A model generated the notes under the pieces. It searched no databases. It saw only the letters and a program-made list of their open reading frames with translations, and was not told where the DNA came from. A stretch of DNA of 64,000 nt from Bacilli bacterium. GTDB taxonomy: Bacteria; Bacillota_I; Bacilli_A; RFN20; CAG-826. Below are positions 54,125 through 64,000 of this stretch, piece after piece; the first letter of the stretch is position 1; each line of letters opens with the position of its first letter. The stretch is from the NCBI GenBank assembly GCA_017445245.1, contig JAFSUM010000014.1, positions 1 through 64,000 on the forward strand, given 5' to 3'. Position numbers and translations under genes: made by a program.

Positions 54125-55402
54125 TTAATGCTGACGGTACTTGTAGAAGGACTCGATATCGACGATTTCCTTCATGATGTCTTTCGTCAGGACTTCGCAT
54201 CCGTTTTGGGTGATGAGGAGGTCATCCTCGATGCGCACGCCGATGCCAAGTTCCTTGAAATAGAGGCCGGGTTCGTTGGAGATGACGTTGCCAGGGACCA
54301 GAGGTTTGGAACGTTTGGGATCGCCAGGATCATGCGTGTCCAAACCGATATGATGGGAGACGCCATGGAAATAGTATTCCTTGATCTCTTCTTTGGTCTT
54401 GATGAGCTTCTTGTCGAGACATTCAGAGGCGAGATATTCGATCGTGAAGTCCTGCAGTTCCTTGATGGTTCTGCCAGGACGGGCAAAGGCAGCGACGGCT
54501 TTGTTCGCTCCTAAGACAATGGTGTAGATGGTCTTTTGCAAATCGGAGAAGACGCCATCTGCAGGTACGGTGCGAGACACGTCGGCGCAGTAATAACCAT
54601 GACGAGATCCCAAATCCATCAAGACGAGGTCACCCGCTTTGATGCGATCGGTCGGCGTCGGGTAATGGAGGCAAGTCGTATGGACACCGGAAGCCAAAAT
54701 CGTCGGGAAGGCGGTTCCTTGATAACCGGAGTTATCGTTGATGACGCGATGGAATTCATTAGCCACTTCGTATTCATAAGCGCCCGGTTGGATCTTCGCC
54801 ATGGCGGAAGCGATGCCGATTTTCGTCACTTCGATCGCCGCGCGGAGTTCGGCGATTTCATTGGGGGATTTGACTTGGCGCAGCTCGACGATCATCTCGT
54901 AGGCGTTATAGATTTCTAGGGTCGGCGAGAGGGCGAGAAGATTCTTGCGGTAATCTTCCATATACATTCCCTGCGCGATCTTATGTTCTTCTTCCATATC
55001 GAGATAGACGCGACGGATCGGCGAGAAGTCGGAGAAATTGCCCGATAACGTGCTCTCGACGCGAGAAGCCAAAGCGGTATTAAGGACGACGTTACGGATT
55101 CCCGAAATAACCGCGGCCTCCTCCAAAGTCAATTTCTTGCCGTACCATTTTTCCTTGACCGGGTCAAAAGGCGAAACCAGCAAATACTCCCGTTCCTCGC
55201 CATCGGCTTTGATGAGAACGAGGACGGAATCTTCCTGGTCGATGCCCGTCAGATAAAAGAAATTACGGTTGACTTCAAAGGGATAGAACTCGTCGGCGGA
55301 GCAGGTCTTCGCCACGCCGGCGAAGAGGATGGCCATCGACCCTTCCTGCATTTTGGAAAGGAACGAGGCGCGGCGGTTTTGATATTCGGAAGCAGGAATC
55401 AT
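54125..55402 (-). CDS. pepP: Xaa-Pro aminopeptidase-like M24 peptidase
   Basis: A 425-residue metallopeptidase of the pita-bread fold, which removes N-terminal residues before proline. The AMP-N-type N-domain (EYQNRRASFLSKMQEGSMAILFAG, FYPFEVNRNFFYLTGIDQEDSVLVL) precedes the catalytic domain with metal ligands in LVLMDLGSRHGYYCADVSRTVP (two Asp), FHGVSHHIGLDTHDPGD (His), ISNEPGLYF (Glu) and VRIEDDLLIT (Glu). GAGGAG lies 9 nt before the ATG. It overlaps yigZ by 4 bases and is the last gene of the giant-protein operon. Confidence 0.93.
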   Translation of the reverse strand: MIPASEYQNRRASFLSKMQEGSMAILFAGVAKTCSADEFYPFEVNRNFFYLTGIDQEDSVLVLIKADGEEREYLLVSPFDPVKEKWYGKKLTLEEAAVISGIRNVVLNTALASRVESTLSGNFSDFSPIRRVYLDMEEEHKIAQGMYMEDYRKNLLALSPTLEIYNAYEMIVELRQVKSPNEIAELRAAIEVTKIGIASAMAKIQPGAYEYEVANEFHRVINDNSGYQGTAFPTILASGVHTTCLHYPTPTDRIKAGDLVLMDLGSRHGYYCADVSRTVPADGVFSDLQKTIYTIVLGANKAVAAFARPGRTIKELQDFTIEYLASECLDKKLIKTKEEIKEYYFHGVSHHIGLDTHDPGDPKRSKPLVPGNVISNEPGLYFKELGIGVRIEDDLLITQNGCEVLTKDIMKEIVDIESFYKYRQH

Positions 55403-56004
55403 AATGAGATCTCCTCGATGAATGTTTCGCGTTGGGGTTTGGGCAATACGAGGTCGAACAGACCGACCTTTTCGCCCAGCCCATCTAGTCTATCACTACT
55501 ATATAATTTCAGTTGAACTTTTATGTCAAAAACGACGTCAACTATAGAAAACGAAAGTCGATTTGCATATTTTTTCAAGGCTTCATAAGCGGAATAGTCT
55601 ACTTCGAGCGCGTAGACGAAGCGTTCCTTTGCCTCCCCTAGCCGCGCATTCTCAATCGCTTTAGTCGCAGCGGAAAGAAAGGCTCTGCGAAGGCGGGGGA
55701 TACCTAGTTTCGTCCCACCGAAATAACGGGCGACGACGAGCATTCCGTCGATGTCTTTTTCCTTAAGCAAAGAGGCTAAAGGCACCCCTGCGCTGCCACC
55801 GGGTTCGCCATCGTCGCTAGACTTATTCACGCCTGATAGGCAGAAAGCATAAGGATAATGATCCGCCTTGGGGTGCTCTTTTTTGAATCGCTCATAGATT
55901 TCCTTTGCCTCTTCCGCTTCGGAAAGAGGAAAAAGCCCGGCGATAAAATCGGAGGCCAGGACTTTTTCTTCCCCTAAGCTTGTGGACAAAGGGATTTTAG
56001 GCAT
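55399..56004 (-). CDS. yigZ: YigZ/IMPACT-family protein
   Basis: A 201-residue protein with the IMPACT signature KSSDDGEPGGSAGVPLASLL and VARYFGGTKLGIPRLRRAF, followed by a small C-terminal alpha/beta domain (RFVYALEVDYSAYEALKKYANR). Eukaryotic IMPACT modulates translation stress signalling; bacterial members bind ribosomes or RNA, but their role is not settled. Its ATG overlaps the stop of the giant gene by 8 bases (ATGCCTAA), so translation is coupled. Confidence 0.92.
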   Translation of the reverse strand: MPKIPLSTSLGEEKVLASDFIAGLFPLSEAEEAKEIYERFKKEHPKADHYPYAFCLSGVNKSSDDGEPGGSAGVPLASLLKEKDIDGMLVVARYFGGTKLGIPRLRRAFLSAATKAIENARLGEAKERFVYALEVDYSAYEALKKYANRLSFSIVDVVFDIKVQLKLYSSDRLDGLGEKVGLFDLVLPKPQRETFIEEISL

Positions 56005-59000
56005 AGAGGGCGGCGACGTTTTGGAAGGTCAGGTCGGTAAGGACGCCGTTGACGTTGCCTTGGGCGAGGAAGGAATGCAGATCGGCGCAGTGCGTCGCAT
56101 CGTCATAGTAGAAGACGTGATTTGCCTTCGTGCCGTCGCGCATCACATCGTAAAGCGAGGCGAGGTAGAAGAGATCCGCGAAGGCATTGTCGCTTCCGCT
56201 AGCCAAGGTCATGAAGCCTTGGTTCATCGCGGTGAAATCCGCGGTGGTGCCATAAAGCGTCTTCATCAAGGCGAAGCAGGCATCGACCTTGGAGAGATAT
56301 TCCGCACTCATCGGGGCAAAGTCTTCGCTCGGGCCAAAGAGATCGTCCGGGAAGGCGGTAAGCGCGGTACGGGTCGACTTGTTGGAGTCACCGAAGAGAA
56401 CCGTCGGAGAAGCAAAGTCGATCGCGACCGTCTGGGATTTGAGAGCGCCGCTATGGCCGATGAGGTTGGCCACGACGCTGCGGCCGAGGTTCGAGCTGAT
56501 GCCCGCGAGGTTGTAATTCTCGGTGTTGGTATCCGAAAGCGGGATGACGATCGAGGCGGAGCCATCGTAAACCGTCGAAGAGAGAGCCTTGCGGATTTCC
56601 TCGATAGCGGAGGGCGAATCGCTTTCCGCGAAGGCCTGATCGACGCCGGCGGTCACGAAGTACTGGACCACGGGCAACGAATATTCCACATTGGTGAAGA
56701 TGGTCGATAGCGTGGTGTTATAGGCGTCATAGGTACCGGCGCTGGTCGCGAAGTTATCGAACCAGAACGCTTCCTTGGTCACTTGGTCCATATGCTCGAG
56801 AGTCATCGCATTGAGATAAGCTTCGAGCTTCTGGAGGTGCTCGGCGCTCGTAGTTCCCTTGCCGATGAGATCGCCGAGGGAGAGCTCGGTGTTGGAAGGA
56901 AGATCGAAGGTCTGGTGGACGGCATCGACGTAAACGTGGACATCAATCGGAGCGGAGACTTCGAACTTAAGGGCGTTATAGAGGGCGCTGGCAGCGGCGG
57001 TATGGTTGGCGCCGCTACTGACGAAGGCATCGTTCTCGTCAAGTTTCGCCTCGTAGAAGCCGGAGTCGGAGAAGAGGGCGAGCAAGCCATAGGTCGAATG
57101 GTTATAGGCACTGGTGCCGGCTTCGTATTCTTCGAAGAACAGCGAGAGAGCGTTTTGGCCATCAGGAACATCGCTATTGAAGGAGAAATAACGATTGGTG
57201 CTGGCATCGCCACGATACGCCGAGGAGAGGAGGTAGCCGATCGCATCGATCGCGCCTTTCTCACCAGAGGCGGGGTTGCCGCGATATTCTTCCGGCGTGA
57301 GGTAGTAGTTCGCGAAATCGACAACCAAATCGGCATCGCCAAGGAAGTTATGGCCACCGGTGAGGGTGATTTCTAGCGGCATGGCAATCTCACCGAATGC
57401 GGGGCCGTTGAAGGTCGTGACACCCCCTTCGTAATTGCAGGTGATCATGTCCGTGATGTCGAGAGTGGTTCCCGCGTTGAGATGGTAGACGGCCGTGAAG
57501 GAACCCACGACGCTTCCATCGGTCGGGACGGAAATCTTCGCGACCGGGTGATAGGTCTTCGTGTTATCGCCATCATCGAATAGCGAAGCGGCGTTCTTGA
57601 GGTTGAGGTGAGTCGCATCCAAAGCGGTCGAACCAAGGGTCGCCTTATAGGTATGCTCGGAGTATTCGTGCAAACCGATACCGGCATCCGAACTCGGACT
57701 CACGCCAAGCAGCGATCCCATGGAGATGCCAAGAGCATCGTCGAGGAGGTTGCTCTTCGCAAGTGCGTACATGAGGCCGCGAATCTTATCCGGGGCGATG
57801 GATTCGATCGCCTTGAAGTCGATCGAGACTGTGCTGGAGGTGTCGGAGAAGAGCCCCGCGTCCTGGCTGGCCGCGACGATACCGACGATCGGATCGTTAG
57901 CCAAGATGCCATCATGGTGGAGGCCATCGGTCGTAAAGGCGTTGATTTCGTCAAGCCAATGATCTCCGTTCTTGGTGATGTCGAGAATGTCGGAATGGGC
58001 CTTGTAATAAGCACCGATCGTGCCAGTTCTCGTCGGGACATAGGTACCCGGGTTGGCTTGGATATAATCCCAGTCTTCCTCAAAGGCATACTGATAGAAA
58101 TGAGCGGAGGAATAGTTCATGTTGTGAAGGTCGGCTTTGAGCATGACCTTGTAGATGAACTGTTCGAAGACGGTGAGATCCTCGAAGTATTCATAGGCGA
58201 CGGCAGCAGGATCGCCTTCGTCCAAGCGGGCGTCTTTCCTGGCCTCGTGGAAGACATAGGAATCATGGAGGTCGAGGAGGATACCGCGGATGAGATTCGG
58301 GTCGAGGTCCTTCATCTTCATCTCGGAGAGGATGTCCTTGTTATCCTTCAAAGAGGAATAAATCATGGCGAGCTGATCGATTTCGGGGCCATAGAAGGGC
58401 ATGTCGAAATTCGGGGTCGCCTGGCGAACCGTCGAGAAGTTGCCATCGGCATCGTAATAATAATAGGAGAAATAGACATCGGCGCTTTGCAAGGAGATGC
58501 CGTCGACATTGATGACATCGCCATCGACAAGAGTCTCTTGGGCACCGTTAGGCACGCAATCGCGCAGGATCGTGCAATCATTGAGGGCGTGGAGGAGGGT
58601 CGCAAATGCGTCTTCGTCGAGTTTGCCGAAATCGCCGCTATCGCTCCCCTTGCCAAGGAAGTCCGTGAAGCGGTCTTCTTTGCAGACACTTAGCAAGCCG
58701 CCGAGTTCGGTGACGATGTAGCGGTCGGCGTTCTCGGCGATGATGGCGCGGTTGCTGCCGTTAAGGGACGGGAAGGTGTTACGGATGACGTAGGCGTTCT
58801 TGGTGATCGCATCGGTGTAGTTAGCCGCGTTAGCGATGTCCTTAGGCGAAGTGGCGAAGTAATAATGCGCGGTCAAGGAGTCGACATTCAAAACGTCGGC
58901 GAAGAGGGCCTGGAAGGCAGTCATACCCCTACGTTCCGTGGCGACTGTCGCGAACGCATCCATCGATTTGGTGGTGTCGCTATTGAAGATGGGCGAGACG

Positions 59001-62000
59001 GCCATTTCGCGTAGGGCAGCCATCAAGGGGCCGACTTCGACGGTCGAGAAATCCGTCATATCGACATCGGTGCAGAAGGCCAAGGAAGCGAAGACATTGA
59101 CGAGTCCTTCGACCGTGTTGCCCTCGCCTTCATAGGTATAACGGGGGAAGTCTACCTTGTCGGTAGGATCTTCGTAGAGATAGAAGTCGGCGCAGGAGAT
59201 ATCCTTGTCGAGATAGCCAAAGGTCATGCCGACGAGAGCGTCGTTAATCGCCTTCTCGAGCTTGGCGGGGAGGCAACGATAATAGAGTTCGCTCTGCTGC
59301 AAGGCGGCGATGAGACCGAAGAGTTCTTCTTTCGAATCGGCCTTGGAGAAGAAGGAACGGAGGCCTTCCTTGGTCGAGAACTCGTCGAAGGAAATCTGGC
59401 CGTCCTTGAGGAAGGCAGAACCCTTAAGAACATCGACGAGGGCGCAGAGGACTTCCGTTTCCTGGTCCCAACCATGGGAAGCGGTAATCGATTTGATGAC
59501 GGATTTAAGGGTTTTTTGCGTCCCTTTCAGGTAGGCGCGGTCCAACTGATCGTCATCGAGGGTCGTCGATTCGGCGCCGGTGTATTTGTCGACGAAGACA
59601 TAGACGCCGGAGTTCTTGACGAAGGTCAGGATGAGGTCTTCAAAGACCGTGAGTTCGGGTAACTTCTCAGTCGGAGAATAGAGGTCGTTGACCGAGGAAG
59701 GATTAAAGACCTTAGAATTACGGGAAGCATAGAAGAGCGGACGGAGCAAGGTATCGGAATCGAGCGTTTCGAAGTTGAAGTTGCCGTCTTTGAGAGCTTG
59801 GTTATTCGCGGCGAGTTTGATGAGGCTCACCATGAATTCCGTCTCTTGATCGCGTTGCTTAAGGACGGCGGAAACGGCGGCACCGCTGCGATCGGTTCCG
59901 TTTTCTTCCATCGCGGTGACGAGCTGCTCGGCATTGCGGAAGAACCAGCCGATGTTCGCGTTCTCCGTCTTTATCGAAGAGGAGACCGAGCCGGATTCGA
60001 AAGCCTTATAGAAGACGTTCGGGGGCAAGACGGCGCCAAGCGAATCCATCGAGCAGATATCGTTAAGCGCCATGACGAGGGCCGGAACGGATTCAGCTTT
60101 GAATTCGGTGAGGCTATCGATGCCGCCAAGGCTATTGAGCGAGGCGACGACTTTGCCGAGTTTGACGAGTTCGGCGTCCCACCCTTCTTTGGTTTCGGGT
60201 AAGGCCATGGCGCGGACGAACGTGGTCGAAAGGGCCTTCTTGTCGGCGACGACTTGGGCGGATTTGCTCGTCCAATAAGCCTCGCCTTTTTCTTCGAGGA
60301 CCTGTTTGACGGTCTTTCCGCCAAAGGCATCCACTTTCTTCTCGGCATAGTCCGTGAAGAGTTTGAACTGCGAGTATTCGTTGATGGAGAGCATGATCTT
60401 GTCGGTGAAGAAATCATCGAAGACATAAGTACCATCGGGCATGACGAAGATATTCGATTTCGCCAGTTCGCGGACGAGTTCGATGACCGAAGGATCGAAG
60501 ACGTCGAGGCTCGAGAGATCGAGGCCGTTGGCGGCGAGGTTCAAGATGGCCTGCATCGCGATGCCTTCGTTGGCCCAGTCTTCGGGGGTGACGAGGTTCT
60601 TATAGGTGACGCCGATCGCTTCGAGGTCGAGGATCTTGTCCGAATCCAAAAGGGTTCCGAGCAGGTTCGCGTCGAAGAACGGCGGGAGAATCTTGCGCAA
60701 GGTGGTCGATTTGCCGATATTGGCAAAGAGTTCGTCGATGCCGACTTTCGAGAGAGTGTCGATCGCTTCCGTCGAGGAGGATTCGGCAAGCTGGGAGAGT
60801 TCTTCGACGATGCCGGTCTCCGCAAGCTGACGGAACACCTGGACCGTGAAGAAGTTATCACGCCTGGTTCTCAGGTTATCGCCATCCCAATCGCTGGCGA
60901 GAGCGACGCCATCGAGAGTCTCATAAGTGATTTCGATACGGGAATCGGGATCGATATCCTTGAGGAAGTATTGGAGCAAGCTGGCGATGTTATAGTTCGT
61001 CACCTCTTTGGAGTCGATCGTATAGACGGGGTTAAGGATCGGCGAACCGGTGAGGATATCCAAAAGGTGCGTGACCTCATAATGCTTTTCCGCCGTCTCG
61101 AACGCGGTCAAGGCGTGGAAGAAGCTATTGGCGTCGACGGTACCGGTCTGGTCGGTCTTGGTGATGGCACCGATGCTGGCGAGGACGTCGGGACAATATT
61201 TGGCAACCGAGATGATATTGGAGAGTTCTTTGCCAAGGTTCGGGCAGTTGAAGTCCACTTTTTCGATGCCCATCTTGCCCAAAGCGCCATCCGCGGCGAG
61301 CAAAGGACGGACGTAATGGTTTCCCAAAACGGGAGACATGTACGTCATTAGTTGAGAGGAATCGAGGTTTTCGATGGCCGTCATGAAGGCATCGGCGATG
61401 GTGGGATTGAATTCAATCAACGTGCCATCGGAAGCGAATTCGAGGCCGGGGTGATTCTTATAATCGGCGAGGAAGGCCTGGCCCGCTTCGCTCTGGGTGA
61501 AATCGCCCGCGATGTCGAGGATGTGGCCGAGTTCACGCTTGTAGTTGATTTTCTCTTCGGAGGGTTTGTCGGGGTCGCCGATGAGACGGTCCGCAATCGC
61601 GCCGGTCTGATCGAGGAAGTCGGCGGGATCTTCGGGATCGGTGAGGACCTCTTGATTCAAGGTCAACGCGCCGAACTGAAGGGCGGCGGGCAAAACATAG
61701 GAAATCAGGTCGGAGTCTAGCAAACAGATGCCCGACTGGCTTTCACCGGCATCGTTCGTGAGCGGTTCGCCGCTAGCGTCACGTTCGCCGATAAGGGCTT
61801 TGATGAGGGCGGGCATGTTCTTCGCGGCATTGGCGAGGAAGTCGGCGACCATTTCGTCTTCGCTATTCATCGAAGTATCGGCAATCGCGTTTTTCGGCAA
61901 GGCTTCCATCGCTTCTTTCGAGGTGCGGAGGATCTGCGCTTCCTTGAACCAGTCGATTTCGGCAAAGCGCTTTTCGTTGAGTTCGCCTTCAGCGTTCATC

Positions 62001-63352
62001 GGCAAGAGGTCGGCAAAGATGGAATCGCCGTTATTCAAATAATCTTGGTAGACAAAGCCCGAAAGGACGGCGTTGACGTAAGCGCGAGCATCCGCATCTT
62101 CGGCCATGCGCTCCTCGATGCGATTAAGGGTCGCACTGGAGAAGGAACCTAAGCCATCATAAACGGGGACAAAGGTTTCAGCTTCAGCAGATTCGATGGT
62201 GTGGACAAATTCCGAGGAGGCGATGCGACCAAACGTCTGCATGCGCGCCTTTTTGGAAAGTTCGAAGTCGGCGGAGAGACCACTGCCCTGGAATTCTTCT
62301 TGGAGGAAGTCGACGTTCTCGGCGATTTCATAGGCCAAAGGCGTCAACGTCTCAAATAGTTCGCCATCCCCTTGGGCGAGAAGATAGAGGGATTGACCGA
62401 CGAGCAAAGAGGAATGGAGGATGGAGCTCGCGAGGGCGTCGGTCGGCTTCTCGGTGAACAAGACGGAAGAGAGAGCACCTTCGACGTTGGAGAAGATGCG
62501 GACTTCCTTGACGAGGTTGGCCTGATAGGTTTTTCCGTCGACCGTGTAGCTATTCTGGGCGACGAACTGGGCGATCTGGGTGTCGAGGGTATCGGTGCCC
62601 GCGCCTTTCGTCCACGCAAAGAAGGCTTTGTTGAAAATGGAATTATCGTACGTATTGATGACGTCGCGCACCAAATTGACCGTCTCGTTTTGAGAGGGTG
62701 GGATGACGGCGTTGTTTTTGATGGCGCTGACCAAACCGGTCAACGGGGAGATACCGACGATGGCGATGGCAATAAAGGCCAACGCCTCTTCGATCGAGGA
62801 AATCCAGCGCTTGGTCGGTTTGCGTTTGGGCTTAGGAATAAAGAACTTGAAGCCGATATGCCATAGCAAGGTAATAAGGAGGGAACCGATGGTAAGCGTG
62901 ATGATGGCCCAAACGAAGACGAGGGCAAGGCGAATCAACGAGCCGGCAAGGGCAATCGAATAGTTCGCAATAGCCGCGGGGGAAGCGTTCAACTTCAACC
63001 CATCGTGGAGCAAGGCATATACCAGGTTATAGAGCGTTTCGTAAACCGTGGTGACAGGTACGCTTACCTGAGTCCCTTGGTTAAACTCGACGACAATAGG
63101 CCCGGCGATCCATTGATGGAGGTCGATACCGCCGACGGCCCCGGAAATCGGACCGAGACACAAAAGCGGAATGATGAAGAACAAGGCCAGGAAGATGACC
63201 CTGTACGTTCCGGACTTCCATCCGCGTAACAAGCCGCGGAGGGCGAGGATCAATATCAAGGCCAAGACGACGATGAAGGCGACGAGGCACCCCGTATCGA
63301 TCCACTCAAGAATTTGCTGTTTCGAAATAGACAATAAAATGTTGGTTCCCAT
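55997..63352 (-). CDS. Giant CvpA-like membrane protein with recurrent motif
   Basis: A 2,451-residue protein. Residues 1-215 hold four helices (about 21-42, 50-68, 136-163, 189-211) in a CvpA-like layout (ALRGLLRGWKSGTYRVIFLALF; KRWISSIEEALAFIAIAIVGISPLTGLVSAI). The remaining roughly 2,240 residues are acidic, nearly free of Cys and without further membrane helices. A motif of type h-x-x-L-h-x-A-L-x-x-S-x-h-h recurs near residues 954, 1086, 1347, 1437, 1576, 1682 and 1850, suggesting tandem diverged domains. A beta-rich part lies near 1880-2010. I start at MGTNILLSIS; a 70-codon N-terminal extension would overlap the divergent gene and lacks an SD. A CATAAT/TAATAA box ends 7-9 nt upstream. 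Followed by yigZ and pepP. Function unknown. Confidence 0.8.
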   Translation of the reverse strand: MGTNILLSISKQQILEWIDTGCLVAFIVVLALILILALRGLLRGWKSGTYRVIFLALFFIIPLLCLGPISGAVGGIDLHQWIAGPIVVEFNQGTQVSVPVTTVYETLYNLVYALLHDGLKLNASPAAIANYSIALAGSLIRLALVFVWAIITLTIGSLLITLLWHIGFKFFIPKPKRKPTKRWISSIEEALAFIAIAIVGISPLTGLVSAIKNNAVIPPSQNETVNLVRDVINTYDNSIFNKAFFAWTKGAGTDTLDTQIAQFVAQNSYTVDGKTYQANLVKEVRIFSNVEGALSSVLFTEKPTDALASSILHSSLLVGQSLYLLAQGDGELFETLTPLAYEIAENVDFLQEEFQGSGLSADFELSKKARMQTFGRIASSEFVHTIESAEAETFVPVYDGLGSFSSATLNRIEERMAEDADARAYVNAVLSGFVYQDYLNNGDSIFADLLPMNAEGELNEKRFAEIDWFKEAQILRTSKEAMEALPKNAIADTSMNSEDEMVADFLANAAKNMPALIKALIGERDASGEPLTNDAGESQSGICLLDSDLISYVLPAALQFGALTLNQEVLTDPEDPADFLDQTGAIADRLIGDPDKPSEEKINYKRELGHILDIAGDFTQSEAGQAFLADYKNHPGLEFASDGTLIEFNPTIADAFMTAIENLDSSQLMTYMSPVLGNHYVRPLLAADGALGKMGIEKVDFNCPNLGKELSNIISVAKYCPDVLASIGAITKTDQTGTVDANSFFHALTAFETAEKHYEVTHLLDILTGSPILNPVYTIDSKEVTNYNIASLLQYFLKDIDPDSRIEITYETLDGVALASDWDGDNLRTRRDNFFTVQVFRQLAETGIVEELSQLAESSSTEAIDTLSKVGIDELFANIGKSTTLRKILPPFFDANLLGTLLDSDKILDLEAIGVTYKNLVTPEDWANEGIAMQAILNLAANGLDLSSLDVFDPSVIELVRELAKSNIFVMPDGTYVFDDFFTDKIMLSINEYSQFKLFTDYAEKKVDAFGGKTVKQVLEEKGEAYWTSKSAQVVADKKALSTTFVRAMALPETKEGWDAELVKLGKVVASLNSLGGIDSLTEFKAESVPALVMALNDICSMDSLGAVLPPNVFYKAFESGSVSSSIKTENANIGWFFRNAEQLVTAMEENGTDRSGAAVSAVLKQRDQETEFMVSLIKLAANNQALKDGNFNFETLDSDTLLRPLFYASRNSKVFNPSSVNDLYSPTEKLPELTVFEDLILTFVKNSGVYVFVDKYTGAESTTLDDDQLDRAYLKGTQKTLKSVIKSITASHGWDQETEVLCALVDVLKGSAFLKDGQISFDEFSTKEGLRSFFSKADSKEELFGLIAALQQSELYYRCLPAKLEKAINDALVGMTFGYLDKDISCADFYLYEDPTDKVDFPRYTYEGEGNTVEGLVNVFASLAFCTDVDMTDFSTVEVGPLMAALREMAVSPIFNSDTTKSMDAFATVATERRGMTAFQALFADVLNVDSLTAHYYFATSPKDIANAANYTDAITKNAYVIRNTFPSLNGSNRAIIAENADRYIVTELGGLLSVCKEDRFTDFLGKGSDSGDFGKLDEDAFATLLHALNDCTILRDCVPNGAQETLVDGDVINVDGISLQSADVYFSYYYYDADGNFSTVRQATPNFDMPFYGPEIDQLAMIYSSLKDNKDILSEMKMKDLDPNLIRGILLDLHDSYVFHEARKDARLDEGDPAAVAYEYFEDLTVFEQFIYKVMLKADLHNMNYSSAHFYQYAFEEDWDYIQANPGTYVPTRTGTIGAYYKAHSDILDITKNGDHWLDEINAFTTDGLHHDGILANDPIVGIVAASQDAGLFSDTSSTVSIDFKAIESIAPDKIRGLMYALAKSNLLDDALGISMGSLLGVSPSSDAGIGLHEYSEHTYKATLGSTALDATHLNLKNAASLFDDGDNTKTYHPVAKISVPTDGSVVGSFTAVYHLNAGTTLDITDMITCNYEGGVTTFNGPAFGEIAMPLEITLTGGHNFLGDADLVVDFANYYLTPEEYRGNPASGEKGAIDAIGYLLSSAYRGDASTNRYFSFNSDVPDGQNALSLFFEEYEAGTSAYNHSTYGLLALFSDSGFYEAKLDENDAFVSSGANHTAAASALYNALKFEVSAPIDVHVYVDAVHQTFDLPSNTELSLGDLIGKGTTSAEHLQKLEAYLNAMTLEHMDQVTKEAFWFDNFATSAGTYDAYNTTLSTIFTNVEYSLPVVQYFVTAGVDQAFAESDSPSAIEEIRKALSSTVYDGSASIVIPLSDTNTENYNLAGISSNLGRSVVANLIGHSGALKSQTVAIDFASPTVLFGDSNKSTRTALTAFPDDLFGPSEDFAPMSAEYLSKVDACFALMKTLYGTTADFTAMNQGFMTLASGSDNAFADLFYLASLYDVMRDGTKANHVFYYDDATHCADLHSFLAQGNVNGVLTDLTFQNVAALYA

Positions 63353-63367
63353 ACTTACATTATTATG
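63353..63367 (-). promoter_or_regulatory. -10 box close to the giant-gene start
   Basis: CATAAT (63367 to 63362) ends 9 nt and TAATAA (63365 to 63360) ends 7 nt before the ATG. No SD is seen. Confidence 0.45.
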
Positions 63368-63417
63368 CGTGCCCCTACGCGCACCATGCAAATAATTTCC
63401 ACGAAAAAATAGAGAAA

Positions 63418-63433
63418 TGGTAGACTTCTCCCA
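63418..63433 (+). promoter_or_regulatory. Extended -10 at the CPBP gene start (leaderless)
   Basis: TGG-TAGACT (63418-63426) ends 7 nt before the ATG at 63434, without an SD. It faces the giant-gene promoter across 81 bp. Confidence 0.5.
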
Positions 63434-64000
63434 ATGAAGACGTATTTTCGCCGAACTATTTGCCCGAAATGCAACTCGTCGCACGACCCGATCGAGGATA
63501 AATGCCCCCGTTGCGGGGAGCCAAATCCCGAGTTTACGGACTATGACCCTTTTAAGTTTCACCTGCGGGACACCATCCCTTGGCAGATTCTTTATTTCGT
63601 CATCGGTTGGCTAGGTTTCCAACTCCTCGGCATTACCATCCAGATCATCATCCAAGCGGGTTTTGGCATAAGCCACCCCGAGGCGACCAAAGAAGAATTG
63701 GTGGCCTTCATGAATACCGTCGGCGTCAATTTTGCCATCACGGGTATCGCTTATCTGCTTTTATTCGGGGCCTTCATTCTCATCCTTTGCTTGCGTAAAC
63801 GGATACATGGGCTAATTAAAACGTTCACGAATTGGCTTCCGTATGTCGTAGGAATCGGCGGCGGCATCGCCCTTCTTGGCGTGTCGCTCACCTATGGCCT
63901 TTTAGCCGATAGCCTCATGAAACTTGCCAACATCGTTCCTTCGGTCAACGAAAACGAAAGCGCCGTCCGCGCCATGGTGCAAGGTTTCCCCGTTCTATCG
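63434..64000 (+). CDS. Zinc-ribbon membrane protein, probable CPBP intramembrane protease (partial)
   Basis: The frame is open from this ATG to the window end (189 codons), so the C-terminus is missing. A zinc ribbon opens the protein: C10-P-K-C13 and C24-P-R-C27. Three hydrophobic helices follow (about 50-75, 93-118, 128-152), then LMKLANIVPSVNENESAVRAM. The NENE-type motif and helix pattern resemble the N-terminal part of CPBP (CAAX/Abi) proteases, whose catalytic EExxxR would lie beyond the window. The call is therefore tentative. Divergent from the giant CvpA-like gene. Confidence 0.7.
   Translation, partial: MKTYFRRTICPKCNSSHDPIEDKCPRCGEPNPEFTDYDPFKFHLRDTIPWQILYFVIGWLGFQLLGITIQIIIQAGFGISHPEATKEELVAFMNTVGVNFAITGIAYLLLFGAFILILCLRKRIHGLIKTFTNWLPYVVGIGGGIALLGVSLTYGLLADSLMKLANIVPSVNENESAVRAMVQGFPVLS

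Follow-up and report, generated by a model that had tools for sequence, protein, structure and literature searches.

A single giant gene occupies the minus strand near the end of the window, the 64,000-nucleotide stretch of DNA analysed here (part of contig C33 in a 1.35-Mb, 74%-complete assembly), and sequence comparison points to a divergent CvpA module at the N-terminus of its product, followed by a long chain that is predicted to lie outside the cell. This architecture of a CvpA anchor bearing a long chain is well supported, and the gene is a real, functional protein gene under purifying selection. A role in contact, adhesion or ligand capture at the surface of an apparently wall-less gut bacterium, useful but dispensable, is the most likely one that we infer; to the fuller proposal, in which a dispensable surface stalk anchored in the membrane makes contact or adheres and evolves fast at its tip, we lend even confidence. 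The features of the locus are collected in Table 1.

Table 1. Features of the giant gene, its predicted product and its neighbours, in window coordinates
Feature	Position	Strand	Basis
Giant CvpA-anchored repeat protein gene	55997..63352	-	2,451 aa + stop; intact homologues 1,588-3,907 aa; dN/dS <0.5 along relatives
N-terminal 4-helix CvpA-like membrane module, residues 1-240	62633..63352	-	KD segments, alignment, hhalign vs CvpA, AF2 helices
Membrane-proximal region, predicted helical, residues 241-819, largely without repeat-profile match	60895..62632	-	AF2; weak repeat links 360-439, 601-682
Degenerate tandem repeat region, residues ~820-1895; ~120 aa units paired into 240, 480	57668..60894	-	hhalign self-comparison, relatives, AF2
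Predicted Ig-like beta-sandwich, residues ~1904-2013	57314..57643	-	AF2 strands; VIA-align
Variable C-terminal region, predicted mixed alpha/beta, residues ~2014-2451	55997..57313	-	Column identity ~0.23-0.36; low-confidence AF2 stretches
yigZ (UPF0029)	55399..56004	-	PF01205 E 6.2e-26; synteny
pepP (M24 aminopeptidase P)	54125..55402	-	PF00557 E 5.1e-52, PF05195 E 2.2e-28
Divergent intergenic region, giant/CPBP-protease gene	63353..63433	.	81 bp
Zinc-ribbon + Rce1-like (CPBP) membrane protein, divergent, cut by window end	63434..64000	+	Pfam PF02517 E 1.6e-14 on L154

As an earlier note on this DNA had described, the frame runs uninterrupted from 63352 to 55997 and overlaps yigZ by 8 bases (55997-56004), with the identities of yigZ and pepP now verified by Pfam; yigZ in turn overlaps pepP by 4 bases, and glpK lies next downstream. 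On the opposite side, the divergent neighbours from window position 63434 onward (L154:3435-5245) encode a zinc-ribbon Rce1-like (CPBP) protein and a TraX-family membrane protein, and the Rce1-like gene adjoins yigZ throughout the order, also in genomes that do not carry the giant. A gene for an Mrp/NUBPL-type P-loop NTPase separates yigZ from pepP in one walled relative (L043:11979-12791), and G055 and other relatives have genes of ~270 aa at the matching position between the two. ARAGORN found no tRNA or tmRNA genes in positions 1-64000 of the window.

The hydrophobic segments of the protein, at residues ~13-46, 47-78, 131-168 and 183-212, are the only ones that it contains and bear out the four-helix N-terminus claimed for it; AlphaFold2 (AF2) places the corresponding helices at residues 11-43, 45-64, 125-170 and 182-214. 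The loops TM1-TM2 and TM3-TM4 are strongly basic, and the giant thus displays two traits of CvpA, four transmembrane helices and a basic loop joining helices 1 and 2. The resemblance to CvpA emerges at the level of the family rather than of the single protein: the giant family profile aligned across all four helices with short proteins of the canonical CvpA type, at 92.8-93.6% probability (hhalign), as against 0.3-3.2% for the control membrane families DedA, Rce1-like and TraX, whereas the window protein alone falls below Pfam detection, with zero matches in Pfam and NCBIfam, CvpA (PF02674) included. Related giants scored 16-32.5 bits against Pfam CvpA, whose cut-off is 29.3, the one above it at 32.5 bits being a distant relative of 1,078 aa, and a profile built from giants of other orders reached 97.6% to CvpA and 99.8% to the window giant family. 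Pfam matches of a few members to VTT (DedA) and EI24/CysZ were rejected as partial transmembrane matches, the VTT/DedA identity because the VTT match is confined approximately to helices 3-4 and a probability of 0.6% was obtained with the DedA profile. Where helix 1 passes into helix 2, the giant also shares with CvpA a small-residue and (R/K)G motif; it differs in that known CvpA proteins are short and end soon past helix 4, whereas the giant continues for ~2,240 aa that have no counterpart in CvpA. Separate, ordinary short CvpA paralogues are encoded as well by relatives in the genus.

By the positive-inside rule, the basic loops between segments 1-2 and 3-4 would place the long C-terminal part outside the cell, a prediction that draws also on the analogy with MarP (Rv3671c), the mycobacterial acid resistance protease in which four N-terminal helices precede an extracytoplasmic domain (PMC4992679). 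The analogy extends to the layout but not to the domain itself: MarP is ~400 aa long and has a trypsin-like domain of which none was found in the giant, and neither the protein nor its alignments yielded a protease family in Pfam or NCBIfam. The 2,236 aa that follow the module contain 329 D+E, 152 K+R and 14 Cys, in agreement with the original description of an acidic, Cys-poor region, and end in ...TFQNVAALYA, with neither an LPXTG signal nor a transmembrane segment.

The earlier note had also reported a motif, h-x-x-L-h-x-A-L-x-x-S-x-h-h, recurring at least seven times. This count did not survive, as the ectodomain contains two copies (mean in shuffles 0.008; fraction of shuffles reaching two, 0.0003); the self-similarity behind the claim was recovered by profile self-comparison as degenerate repeats between residues ~820 and ~1,895. 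Repeats were detected with phmmer fragments and hhalign in place of a BLASTP comparison of the giant with itself, which returned the trivial match alone, and hhalign located them at offsets near 120, 240 and 490 residues (E down to 9e-10). Copies of a ~480-aa block number four in G003 and two each in G018, G024 and G055. Structure prediction of slices, proposed as a check, gave AF2 models (residues 1-1200, pLDDT 78.3; residues 1252-2451, pLDDT 74.2) that are largely helical and solenoid-like, and on these models the stalk is predicted to be a solenoid of helical repeats with an Ig-like beta-sandwich domain near the C-terminus. The best Foldseek neighbours of the models were mostly HEAT/ARM solenoids and were non-significant (E 0.03 and 2.6e-3, TM ~0.1). 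VIA-align related residues ~1904-2013 to MSCRAMM adhesins, streptococcal pilins and antigen I/II domains at Z 5-6.6, which lies below the trust level of the tool (Z <8), and other beta-sandwich proteins scored like the adhesin domains. PDB sequence searches with the giant returned nothing useful, and no sequence similarity of the giant to characterised adhesins was detected. Conservation is lowest across the last ~550 residues. The CvpA-like profile, the basic cytosolic loops, the acidic ectodomain, the helical repeat model and the MarP precedent together give good support to the suggestion of a long extracellular chain borne by a CvpA anchor, and the suggested adhesion role is plausible. The outcome that the earlier note had set as refuting, no self-similarity together with a clear match of the full-length protein to a known, characterised family, was not observed.

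Homologues of the giant were sought in the genome of the window and in those of 60 relatives, and 26 of these 61 genomes had a match; in 20 of these 26, the flanking DNA contained long intact frames, of 2,308-3,907 aa for most of the genus and 853-2,179 aa in other genera and families, so that intact relatives of ~850-3,900 aa exist within the order. Identity to the nearest relatives is 37-39%. Scanning genome contigs with the whole protein found no relatives, and scanning them with the conserved N-terminal profile yielded 29 named loci; the relatives with names comprise Bacilli MAGs from rumen and gut as well as Candidatus Alloenteromonas. Across the order, the N-terminal profile matches 155 of 279 genomes and 34 of 56 genera, mostly once per genome and within a long frame, some of the weaker matches being short CvpA paralogues. 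The usual position of the giant in the order is between the divergent CPBP-protease gene and yigZ.

In 15 giant-less species, 12 of them in the genus, the CPBP gene adjoins yigZ with a gap of generally ~20-85 bp, and pepP, mostly with glpK as well, still follows yigZ. On a tree of yigZ+pepP+glpK, the presence of the giant changes seven times, at least five of these changes being forced by well-supported branches. At least five losses or gains of the giant have left its flanks intact, and repeated loss is the simpler reading because the position of the gene is common to different families. As for the proposed yigZ-pepP operon, the neighbours and their order persist in giant-less genomes, so that this arrangement is without functional information, and a functional link of the giant to yigZ-pepP was rejected.

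In closer pairs, dN/dS is ~0.07-0.48 over the full length of the giant and <0.5 in nearly all segments, and there is therefore no sign of diversifying selection; together with the conserved long frames, these values establish the giant as a functional protein gene. Synonymous divergence between G009 and G010 drops from ~1.0 to ~0.1 near residue 1,100, remains low through yigZ and stands at 0.9 again in pepP, and the pair G009/G028 has the opposite pattern. This mosaic points to interspecies recombination at the giant locus, the exchanged block in these three genomes (L038, L036 and L041) extending from giant residue ~1100 through yigZ. Within the exchanged block of one pair, tip dN/dS is 0.39-0.48 versus ~0.16-0.2 upstream.

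The family extends beyond the order. Applied to a sample from the whole class, the N-terminal profile found matches in 122 of 395 genomes, and outside the order about 97 of the ~107 matches listed lie in frames of at least 700 aa, with a maximum of 6,056 aa. At 16 loci examined closely, four helices are followed by a long region that is usually acidic and often has strong tandem repeats of ~88-97 aa. The consensus of this unit at L172, L181, L173, L182, L180 and L171 starts DELKALLDALEILGLTDFDNFDGDIDL, with up to 28 copies per protein, and no significant Pfam match to the unit was found in the proteins scanned. Homology of the ~88-aa unit of distant orders to the window repeats is not supported: the comparison gave 8% probability, albeit at the expected region, and a reversed control gave 0.2%. 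Two CvpA-fronted giants stand in tandem on one strand at L171:3513-15515 and at L182:1-11411, both in other families of the class. Three giant-bearing single-contig genomes appear to be those of Acholeplasma brassicae 0502 (giant of 3,683 aa), A. palmae J233 (1,629 aa) and Izemoplasmatales strain zrk13 (2,342 aa); the Acholeplasma genomes (PMC4221730) and that of the cultured isolate zrk13 (PMC8397711) have been published. An AuxA match of zrk13 (E 0.027) was taken as chance. As a unit, the giant family has no entry in Pfam or NCBIfam as tested, and no paper on it was found in the literature searched.

The cell envelope gives this family its context. No penicillin-binding transpeptidases (PBPs) were found in 31 genomes of the genus, in agreement with a survey of the order RFN20 in which the families CAG-826, probably that of the window, and CAG-288 were predicted to be peptidoglycan-deficient and srtA/B were missing (PMC10868615). 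Several other genera of the order do carry penicillin-binding transpeptidases, and giants are found also in PBP-bearing members of the order (G035, G041, G045 and G055). A strict tie of the giant to wall loss was therefore rejected; as giants occur in walled and wall-deficient lineages alike, the protein is no consequence of wall loss.

In the mechanism that we propose, a four-helix CvpA-type module would span the membrane, both of its short basic loops facing the cytosol. The ~2,240 acidic residues outside would form a stalk, mostly helical and solenoid-like, that is built from degenerate units of ~120 residues and capped by a tip which contains beta structure and evolves faster. Duplication of a ~480-residue block may change the length of the stalk between species, and the CvpA module would serve as the anchor where LPXTG and sortase serve elsewhere, in a lineage in which PBPs were not found and whose probable order is reported to lack sortases. 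The repeats, the changes in presence with flanks kept, the lower conservation of the tip, its higher dN/dS in one pair and the recombination block all speak for this proposal. Against it, no characterised adhesin is detectably similar in sequence, dN/dS gives no hint of diversifying selection, the identity to the nearest relatives fits a housekeeping scaffold equally well, the fold matches from both Foldseek and VIA-align are weak, and the carriage of relatives by walled species argues against a stalk specific to wall loss.

The main rival to a surface stalk is envelope maintenance, in which the CvpA module does the work and the ectodomain serves outside the cytoplasm as a scaffold, either to gather partners or to buffer the surface of the membrane. 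In EHEC and vibrios, resistance to deoxycholate depends on CvpA (PMC6705877), the periplasmic domain that MarP joins to its four helices is required for acid resistance (PMC4992679), and the hosts of the giant are rumen and gut bacteria in which it is usually single-copy, conserved in position and under purifying selection. We nonetheless consider this explanation unlikely, if the strongest of the alternatives: the giant is repeatedly lost, relatives in the genus have short CvpA paralogues besides it, an envelope enzyme has no need of 850-6,000 aa, and no catalytic domain was found in the giant by Pfam or NCBIfam. A further possibility is that the giant has a mechanical or structural part in wall-poor cells, as a cortex-like protein or as a leg for gliding or attachment instead of an adhesin that binds ligands. 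This would suit a genus without PBPs, the class-wide occurrence of giants in apparently wall-less cultured species and a stalk modelled as solenoid-like; the giants of PBP-bearing members of the order and the many PBP-less species of the genus without one make it improbable.

That the long part instead remains inside the cell, as a membrane-bound scaffold in the cytoplasm, is more doubtful still. Most solenoids of the HEAT/ARM-like type in the PDB are scaffolds from the interior of eukaryotic cells, but the basic loops and the acidic, Cys-poor C-terminal part weigh on the other side, as do the external location of the equivalent MarP domain and the Ig-like sandwich, which in the models resembles surface proteins. 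A chance open frame, an assembly artefact or a decaying gene deserves almost no credence, being refuted by full-length conservation in dozens of MAGs and by the selection acting on the frame, and the translational overlap with yigZ recurs in several species. A point in favour of decay comes from the close relative G028, in which a perfect 26-bp tandem duplication breaks the giant frame into 1,093 + 1,235 aa (L041:6391-13479), possibly through assembly error or as slippage-type on/off variation.

Viewed as a surface stalk, the giant has counterparts among known proteins. Like the MSCRAMM/LPXTG adhesins (ClfA, SdrC), antigen I/II and sortase pilins, it is large and would carry an Ig-like beta-sandwich far from the membrane, a likeness resting on a weak fold match; unlike the LPXTG/MSCRAMM adhesins, it has no LPXTG, its anchor is N-terminal and its predicted stalk is helical rather than beta. 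The giant leg proteins Gli349 and Gli521 of gliding mycoplasmas are likewise very large and surface-located, in wall-less bacteria of the same broad clade. Compared by description, the giant shares their size; it has a four-helix CvpA anchor, and motility is not indicated.

Somewhat speculatively, an unrecognised class-wide family of CvpA-anchored giants (~850 to >6,000 aa) could be the main sortase-independent long-stalk route of wall-less and wall-poor Bacilli, with repeat number setting length and recombination swapping tips. Since the genomes matching A. brassicae 0502, A. palmae J233 and zrk13 encode members, function can be tested in culture, beyond MAGs. CvpA, a poorly understood module, would be redefined as an anchor of extracellular giants, and the family may offer an answer to how bacteria without a wall and sortases hold large surface proteins.
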